A stretch of DNA of 36,793 nucleotides from Syntrophothermus sp. DTU052 (lineage in GTDB: Bacteria; Bacillota; Syntrophomonadia; Syntrophomonadales; DTU052). The notes beneath the pieces are model-generated. The model did not search any database. It was not told the DNA's origin and saw nothing but the letters and a program-made list of their open reading frames with translations. Made by a program: the position numbers and the translations under genes. Where the stretch lies: positions 624 to 37,416 of the forward strand of contig LFRU01000032.1 in NCBI GenBank assembly GCA_001512495.1. Reading direction: 5' to 3'. Below are positions 5,527 to 28,190 of this stretch, one piece after another. The stretch's first letter is position 1, and every line of letters starts with the position of its first letter.

Positions 5527-5727
5527 ATTTAAGCTCCTCGATCTGGTGCTCGTCTTTAATACGAGTGTTTTGCAGAATTCTTTCACCAAATTATACCATG
5601 AAAGACGGAAGGGGTGGCTCGAAAAATCACTGTATCATTCGAGATTTTCGGATTCTATTGTTGTTCCCCGCCTATCATTTTCACATGTAGTAGTATAAAA
5701 TGGAGTCAGCCTAAAAAATTGTATAAC

Positions 5728-5900
5728 GTGAACAGGTGCCCCACCGGGGATAATAGGGAAGCCGGGAGCTTTATGAGCTCACAGAAGCCGGCGCGGTCCC
5801 GCCACTGTGACGGGGAGCGAGCCTACGATTAAAACCACTGGATTCTGCCGGGAAGGTGTAGGTAAGCCATGAACCGGAGCCAGGAGACCTGCCTGTTCAC
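5728..5900 (+). promoter_or_regulatory. Cobalamin riboswitch
   Basis: P1 GTGAACAGG (5728-5736) pairs with CCTGTTCAC (5892-5900). Conserved core GGGAAGCCGG..., GCGCGGTCCCGCCACTGTGACGGGGAGCGA..., GTAAGCCATGAACCGGAGCCAGGAGACCTGCC; upstream of B12 genes. Confidence 0.93.
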
Positions 5901-5953
5901 CTGGCAACCTGCCTTCGAGGAAAGGGGGGAACAGCAGCGTGTTGAGTACTACG

Positions 5954-11908: not shown

Positions 11909-12333
11909 CTCGACGATTAAGGGGGATACCTGAAATATTACCGTGCATTTGCCCATGATCCCGCCGCCCGGCTGGTTGGTTTTCTCCGCCGAGAAATGAC
12001 CATTTGGACAGCAGCTTGTGGGTTACCGGAATGCATAAGTTGATTGTATAATGTCATAGGGTGGGTACTCTCCTTTCAGGTTTGGTTTTTCCCACAACCA
12101 TAATACCTTAGGGATACCCATCCTTTTCAATGCCCTTGTTAAACCGAATAAAGTGCTGTGAACCAAAGTCTGGTCTCCACGGAGAGTTGCAGGTATATCT
12201 TGACTGGCCGGGGCCTGGCATGTTAACCTTTTGTTGTTGGTTGCACATTTTTGCAACCGCATGATCCGGGTATTAAAGCGGCCTTCGGCCCACCTGCGAT
12301 CAGCGAGTCTCTAAAATGTGGAGGTGTAGACTG

Positions 12334-27844: not shown

Positions 27845-27877
27845 CAAAAAACCTCTCCATCCCAAAGGACGAGAGGT
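27845..27877 (-). terminator. T-box intrinsic terminator
   Basis: Minus strand ACCTCTCGTCCTTTGGGATGGAGAGGTTTTTTG; the standard T-box terminator form overlapping the antiterminator 3' side. Confidence 0.88.
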
Positions 27878-27909
27878 CTCCCGCGGTACCACCTTACTTG
27901 GCAAATATC

Positions 27910-27984
27910 TGGTGGAGCTGGCGGGACTCGAACCCGCGGCCTCTTCCATGCCAAGGAAGCGCGCTCCCTCTGCGCCACAGCCCC
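27910..27984 (-). tRNA. tRNA-Ala (anticodon GGC), CCA encoded
   Basis: GGGGCTG-TG-GCGC-AGAGGGA-GCGC-G-CTTCC-TTGGCAT-GGAAG-AGGCC-GCGGG-TTCGAGT-CCCGC-CAGCTCC-ACCA. All arms pair; G3:U70 Ala identity pair present. Confidence 0.96.
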
Positions 27985-28190
27985 ATGTTTTGCCCCCTTA
28001 GGATTATAACGTGATCAACGGTGCCGGCTATATGGATTTCTTCAGGATAAAACCCGATCCCTTCACCGGCACGGCTCCCCGGCGAGATTCAACCTGCTAC
28101 CTGCTGCCTCACACCAACCGGCAGCTCGCTTAAAGGATTGCCAAGCTTACTGCTCCGGTTCCTCACCATAATCTATAATTGACATTGCAC

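Follow-up and report, generated by a model that had tools for sequence, protein, structure and literature searches.

Genes for tRNAs can be co-transcribed with mRNAs, as in the E. coli tufB operon with thrU-tyrU-glyT-thrT and in metY-nusA, where the tRNA lies beside the leader and is cut from the 5' region of the mRNA by processing enzymes. In T-box leaders, Stem III is needed for the sensing of charging and is set in the flanking motif RRRxG-StemIII-AA (PMC7583486, PMC7778990), and lineage-specific insertions whose function is unexplained occur in every T-box domain (PMC7583486). In the leuS, valS and serS leaders of Staphylococcus aureus, RNase Y cuts between Stem I and the T-box sequence, which starts the decay of a waste RNA (PMC4608709).

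We analysed a stretch of 36,793 nucleotides from Syntrophothermus sp. DTU052 (the window), whose minus strand carries a leader of the leucyl-tRNA synthetase gene leuS. Like the leuS T-boxes of Bacillota (RF00230), this leader has the same modules in the same order, the CUC specifier, RRRxG-StemIII-AA, an antiterminator/terminator switch and leuS as target, but the Stem III loop, which is a few nucleotides there, is here a complete and apparently functional tRNA gene. Like the tRNAs of E. coli tufB and metY-nusA, the tRNA would be cut from the 5' region of an mRNA by processing enzymes; unlike them, it lies inside a helix of a regulatory RNA that senses another tRNA. As in S. aureus, an endonuclease cut is expected in the interval between Stem I and the T-box of a synthetase leader, but the expected RNase P cut would yield tRNA-Ala instead of starting decay. 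Like the lineage-specific insertions it is extra sequence within a T-box domain; in contrast to them, the insert is a tRNA gene, always of the same isoacceptor, in several phyla. Open-access full texts, among them the T-box database paper and a major review (PMC7778990, PMC7583486, PMC2494555, PMC4919913, PMC4608709), yielded no account of a tRNA gene nested in a T-box or in any other riboswitch. The nesting seems to have gone unnoticed in the open-access T-box literature. Within the open-access papers searched, this is consistent with the preliminary description, in which the arrangement was taken to be new.

All features of the leader are on the minus strand. A sigma-A type promoter (TTGACT-18-TATAAT, 28220-28191) is seen in the sequence before Stem I. 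Rfam cmscan matched RF00230 over the whole model (1-219) at 28172-27862(-) with 118.9 bits (E 6e-26), the Rfam gathering score for this family being 93 bits. In the cmscan alignment, Stem I, the sensor of the tRNA-Leu anticodon and elbow, occupies 28172-28073 and presents the specifier codon CUC (Leu) at 28086-28084; it is followed by Stem II (GUGCCGG/CCGGCAC, 28072-28021) and by the Stem IIA/B region with the conserved CGUUA (28020-28007). The specifier fits the leuS target, and a tRNA-Leu(GAG) gene was found in the same genome (G000:C4). The purine string AAGGG (27999-27995), corresponding to RRRxG, stands 5' of Stem III in the sequence. The Stem III arms GGCAAA (27994-27989) and TTTGCC (27905-27900) were placed by the cmscan alignment, by pairing tests and by folding, and the 3' arm is followed by the conserved AA (27899-27898). 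Within Stem III the RF00230 alignment opens an 81-nt insert, which is a tRNA-Ala(GGC) at 27984-27910(-) with encoded CCA, G3:U70 and U at -1 (ARAGORN; RF00005, 67.7 bits), joined to the arms by the linkers ACAT on the 5' side and GATA on the 3' side. The antiterminator AAGGTGGTACCGCGG (27895-27862 in the cmscan alignment) starts at 27895 and contains the T-box bulge UGGU (27891-27888) within AAGGUGGUACCGCGG. It is mutually exclusive with an intrinsic terminator, ACCTCTC...GAGAGGT plus a T tract (27877-27846, ending at about 27846), which was recognised from sequence and fold. The leader is followed by leuS (27717-25237), encoding a leucyl-tRNA synthetase of 826 aa with the LeuS editing domain (PF13603, 9e-77). 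In the minimum-free-energy fold of the leader, GGCAAA/UUUGCC closes around the full cloverleaf and the terminator is also formed.

Judged by its sequence, the nested leader is a T-box (RF00230) in every feature by which membership can be checked. The preliminary description had given the order promoter, Stem I, Stem II, GGCAAA/TTTGCC helix, antiterminator and terminator, with a tRNA-Ala(GGC) nested in a tRNA-sensing T-box; all of these anatomical statements were verified with the sequence, RF00230 and ARAGORN, the tRNA being functional-looking and the T-box complete. Stem I upstream of the tRNA, on whose recognition by a covariance model that reading had been staked, was recognised by RF00230 at full length. 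Elsewhere in the window there are a cobalamin riboswitch at 5717-5910(+) (RF00174, 109.5 bits) and a ribosomal protein L21 leader at 12245-12320(+) (RF00559, 43.5 bits). The DTU052 genome also has a second unusually long T-box of 346 nt (L003 1501-1846; G000:C88:32362-32707), in which ARAGORN found no tRNA.

We searched 40 relatives, from 24 genera of the order including Syntrophomonas and Thermosyntropha, with the leader DNA; of the 30 loci retrieved, 28 have tRNA-Ala(GGC) in the same place. The other two are a locus with an assembly gap within the tRNA (L043), hence without an ARAGORN match, and a locus with a broken tRNA. A comparison of the tRNA position in relatives had been proposed beforehand: the same place was kept, and a Stem III elsewhere was not encountered. 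We then defined the nesting as a pattern of tRNA T-arm, CCA, 4-34 nt and T-box core. This pattern was present in 37 of 40 near-complete genomes of the class of DTU052 and, with encoded CCA, in 74 of 399 sampled genomes of the phylum; when tRNAs lacking CCA were also allowed, the number rose to 81 of 399, in 57 of 271 genera. The reversed pattern, used as a control, gave 0 matches in the 399 genomes. Since the nesting recurs in many loci against none for this control, it is far beyond chance.

A scan of GTDB with one genome per species gave at least 120 stretches with the pattern, and at least 71 distinct nested leaders among the matches listed; in those listed, the genuine nested leaders all have tRNA-Ala(GGC). 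Wherever a genuine locus was checked and its contig reached far enough, leuS follows; in L087, L118 and L142 it begins about 2 kb further downstream. The specifier was CUC in 10 of 10 nested leaders whose alignments were inspected. RF00230 scored 93-131 bits in eight diverse loci, 70-91 bits over the full model in nine more and 31 bits in one. In Bacillota the scores were 130.7 bits in Desulfotruncus (L075), 124.6 in L100 and 119.7 in Desulfofundulus (L087); in Chloroflexota they were 100.7 in Tengunoibacter (L096), 93.7 in L083 and 85.5 in L072; in Thermomicrobiota, 91.5 in Sphaerobacter (L105) and 70.9 in L121; and in Armatimonadetes (Armatimonadota), 70.4 in L134. Other MAGs, whose labels are possibly wrong, are Atribacteria (L148, 90.9 bits), Actinomycetota (L141, 90.3), Caldisericota (L133, 73.2) and Coprothermobacterota (L102, 70.4). 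Rfam's high gathering score (93) thus misses many nested leaders, several of which score 70-91 bits. Named isolates with the nesting are Desulfofundulus thermosubterraneus DSM 16057, Thermosyntropha lipolytica DSM 11003 and Tengunoibacter tsumagoiensis.

Stem III or T-box scores are weak or irregular in some nested loci, e.g. L136, L094 and L116. Two Chloroflexi MAGs (L116 and L092) have a nested tRNA-Ala before leuS and a clear antiterminator core, but RF00230 matches very weakly (31 bits in L116); from the sequence their T-box appears divergent or shortened. In Ktedonobacteria, the nested T-box is preceded on the same strand, at a distance of about 100 nt, by a second tRNA gene, tRNA-Ala(CGC) (L072 2780-2855 and L096 4012-4085), which is possibly co-transcribed with it. 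Pattern matches with other tRNAs (tRNA-Ser in Paraburkholderia, tRNA-Trp in Variovorax, and Pro, Tyr, Lys, Leu and Gln) had no T-box and were set aside as chance. In L113, L135 and L076 the pattern matched coincidental T-arm-like sequences in ordinary T-boxes, with no tRNA, and Rfam tmRNA matches on the nested tRNA reflect the shared acceptor and T-arm only.

The helix that encloses the tRNA has the features of a working Stem III. Among 124 distinct nested leaders, RRRxG is directly 5' of Stem III in 83, against a background of 5.6%, and AA is directly 3' of it in 113. The arms covary, with pairs such as GGCAAA/TTTGCC, GGACA/TGTC, GGTAA/TTACC, GACCGAT/ATCGGTC and ACGATG/CATCGT. Covariation of the arms in relatives had been suggested as a check, and own partners paired better in three tests, in all of which kinship is ignored. 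The duplex energy was -9.58 kcal/mol with the own partner vs -6.55 kcal/mol with swapped partners (SD 0.24; 0 of 20000 permutations), and the helix length was 5.53 bp vs 3.91 bp for swapped arms (maximum 4.41; 0 of 10000 permutations). When the arms were anchored on the motifs and so placed without regard to pairing, 62.6% of cells were paired, vs 53.2 +- 2.3% for shuffled and 31-53% for slid arms. The linkers between Stem III and the tRNA range from 0 to 18 nt on both sides, which argues against a rigid stack of the tRNA on Stem III.

We examined 29 genomes of the phylum without the pattern. In 12 of them the corresponding place in the leuS T-box is taken by a short Stem III of the ordinary kind, such as GAGTG-GGTAA-TTTA-TTACC-AA in L267. 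Two turned out to be nested after all, one with a variant core (L281) and one without CCA (L286); a motif search found no T-box in the remaining genomes. It had been claimed that taking the tRNA out of the DTU052 leader leaves a normal Stem III. Natural empty leuS T-boxes show exactly such a helix, so this thought experiment is realised in nature.

Broken loci were also found. In genome G024, one contig (C109; L250) has Stem I through the Stem III 5' arm and an intact tRNA, then a terminator-like hairpin; the next ORF matches the phage-integrase N-terminal domain PF13495 (E 2.3e-5, just below the Pfam score cut-off). Another contig of the same genome (C41; L256) repeats the final 49 nt of the tRNA region identically and continues with the Stem III 3' arm, the antiterminator and leuS. 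From these sequences, an element appears to have integrated into the tRNA gene, restoring the tRNA and parting the sensor from leuS, and we infer that the two contigs flank one element. IS66 remnants occur near the C41 locus. Genome G004 has a decayed 3' tRNA remnant and the antiterminator before leuS, with no Stem I (L252 6347-6427; G004:C9), and no intact tRNA-Ala(GGC) was found in its assembly. The leuS of G025 is not preceded by a T-box, and the assembly yielded no Ala-GGC; the best leader match there is a different T-box, before an ORF read as ilvD.

A quick LeuS tree was built from 72 rows; on it the nested state is explained by 12 changes, against 22.4 when shuffled, and gain and loss are not separable by this tree. 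The nested rows of Chloroflexota, Thermomicrobiota and Armatimonadota are mostly close together, and in Bacillota nested, empty and T-box-less leaders are interspersed. The same tRNA occupies the same helix in every case, which makes repeated insertion less likely than a single ancient gain with subsequent losses and transfers.

The nested gene has the sequence of a functional tRNA, with a cloverleaf, a GGC anticodon and G3:U70. This base pair, the identity pair for alanine, is present in 124 of the 124 distinct nested leaders, and U is at -1 in 110 of them. Ala-GGC genes were counted from matches with a complementary anticodon stem only. In the fragmented draft assembly of DTU052, the nested gene is the only detectable Ala-GGC among 38 tRNA matches, and the nested copy is likewise the only Ala-GGC in 36 of 37 nested genomes of the order (draft assemblies). 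Of 64 further nested genomes, judged by eye, about 59 have the nested copy only, four have extra copies and one is ambiguous at contig ends. As the nested gene is usually the sole detectable copy, its excision would be needed for translation. In six ORFs of the window, 90 of 150 Ala codons are GCC or GCT, the codons read by tRNA-Ala(GGC). The CCA is encoded in most nested tRNAs; the six genomes without it (G054 with L286, G096, G132, G209, G161 and G295) have nested tRNAs that would have to be excised and given a CCA end before they could function. No tRNA-Ala(UGC) turned up in the DTU052 draft assembly; its gene probably lies in an rRNA operon that was not assembled.

Over 112 nested loci, the promoter score 170-400 nt before the tRNA was 8.90 vs 6.95 in shuffles, and the typical conserved promoter is TTGACt-17-TATAAT, 175-210 nt before the tRNA and just before Stem I. 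The score in the 75 nt before the tRNA was at chance in the same loci (6.16 vs 5.89 shuffled). Because the only conserved promoter precedes Stem I, transcription of the tRNA is most likely driven by the T-box promoter.

We therefore regard the locus, with good confidence, as an ordinary leucine T-box (CUC, for tRNA-Leu(GAG)) in which a complete tRNA-Ala(GGC) takes the place of the Stem III loop, and whose transcript would be both regulator and tRNA precursor. This model is built on the anatomy, conservation, covariation, promoter position and single copy observed, from which we infer a single transcript, the excision of the tRNA, its timing and the response to leucine. One promoter upstream of Stem I would drive both the T-box and the tRNA. 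RNA polymerase would transcribe first Stem I and Stem II, next the 5' arm of Stem III and the tRNA, and last the 3' arm and the antiterminator. The Stem III arms would close around the folded tRNA and loop it out, so that RRRxG-StemIII-AA and the antiterminator domain would form as if the tRNA were the loop. Uncharged tRNA-Leu would give read-through into leuS and charged tRNA-Leu termination. This decision would fall about 60 nt after the tRNA, within seconds, and with so short a gap it would probably precede processing. Since the terminator is downstream of the tRNA, terminated and read-through transcripts would both contain it, as the preliminary description had foreseen when it stated that tRNA-Ala would also be made on attenuated transcripts. 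From both kinds of transcript, tRNA-Ala would then be released through RNase P and trimming of the 3' end. The terminated leader, which is waste elsewhere, would be a precursor of the only tRNA-Ala(GGC) of the genome, and the supply of this tRNA would then follow promoter activity and not leucine status.

Processing could itself be part of the regulation, with the RNase P cut competing with antitermination in a race, or with the Stem III arms clamping a split T-box together. The preliminary description had suggested such a race, or a coupling of tRNA-Ala release to leucine sensing, and the 5'-monophosphate of the cut mRNA is a further route by which excision might act back on leuS. The expected cut sites do lie exactly between sensor and antiterminator, the pairing of the Stem III arms is kept by selection, and T-box leaders of S. 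aureus are cut in the same interval by RNase Y (PMC4608709). Nevertheless, with only about 60 nt from tRNA to terminator the decision probably precedes RNase P, and ordinary T-boxes with no tRNA need Stem III too (PMC7583486), so that its conservation does not require a role as a clamp; we consider such a race or clamp quite unlikely. A wider form, which we would call unlikely, makes the tRNA part of a circuit: excision by RNase P would leave two pieces clamped by Stem III, leucine starvation, tRNA-Ala supply and RNase P capacity would be read jointly at leuS, and the device would predate the split of several phyla. The tRNA might instead have a promoter of its own inside the T-box, around CGTTATAAT of Stem IIA/B, and be transcribed separately with a mere physical overlap. 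A TATAAT 18 nt before the tRNA is indeed found in DTU052 and several other members, but its -35 is poor, the -10-like motif is missing in many members, the region is at chance over the 112 loci, and the TTA of the motif is there because the conserved CGUUA element of the T-box supplies it. Separate transcription is accordingly highly unlikely.

Retention of the tRNA as a structural module of the T-box, e.g. with its acceptor stem stacked on Stem III, instead of as a working cellular tRNA, had been raised in the preliminary description. In its favour, the tRNA is in the discriminator domain in all cases. Against it stand the linkers of 0-18 nt on both sides, the full alanine identity (G3:U70 in 124 of 124) and GGC anticodon that are kept, the nested gene being the only Ala-GGC in most genomes and the commonness of leuS T-boxes without a tRNA; we give it very little probability. 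Equally improbable is a T-box that is a non-functional relic and now merely a leader for the tRNA. The 5' half and tRNA that G024 keeps after separation from leuS would fit such a relic, whereas conservation across phyla extends to the specifier, the purine strings, the covarying Stem III, the antiterminator and the terminator. An assembly artefact or a one-off insertion has practically no probability, given independent finds in 37 of 40 genomes of the class, in 81 of 399 genomes of the phylum and in named isolates.

With tRNA-Ala(GGC) in the Stem III loop of an ordinary leucine T-box, a core regulatory RNA and an essential tRNA would be transcribed and folded together in several phyla. This suggests that not every terminated T-box leader is waste. 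Nature also offers here T-boxes that carry a domain of 80 nt within Stem III, the part recently shown to be essential for the sensing of charging, and with them one can ask directly whether antitermination or RNase P processing comes first. The finding raises the question why the linkage of tRNA-Ala(GGC) to leuS has been kept for so long.
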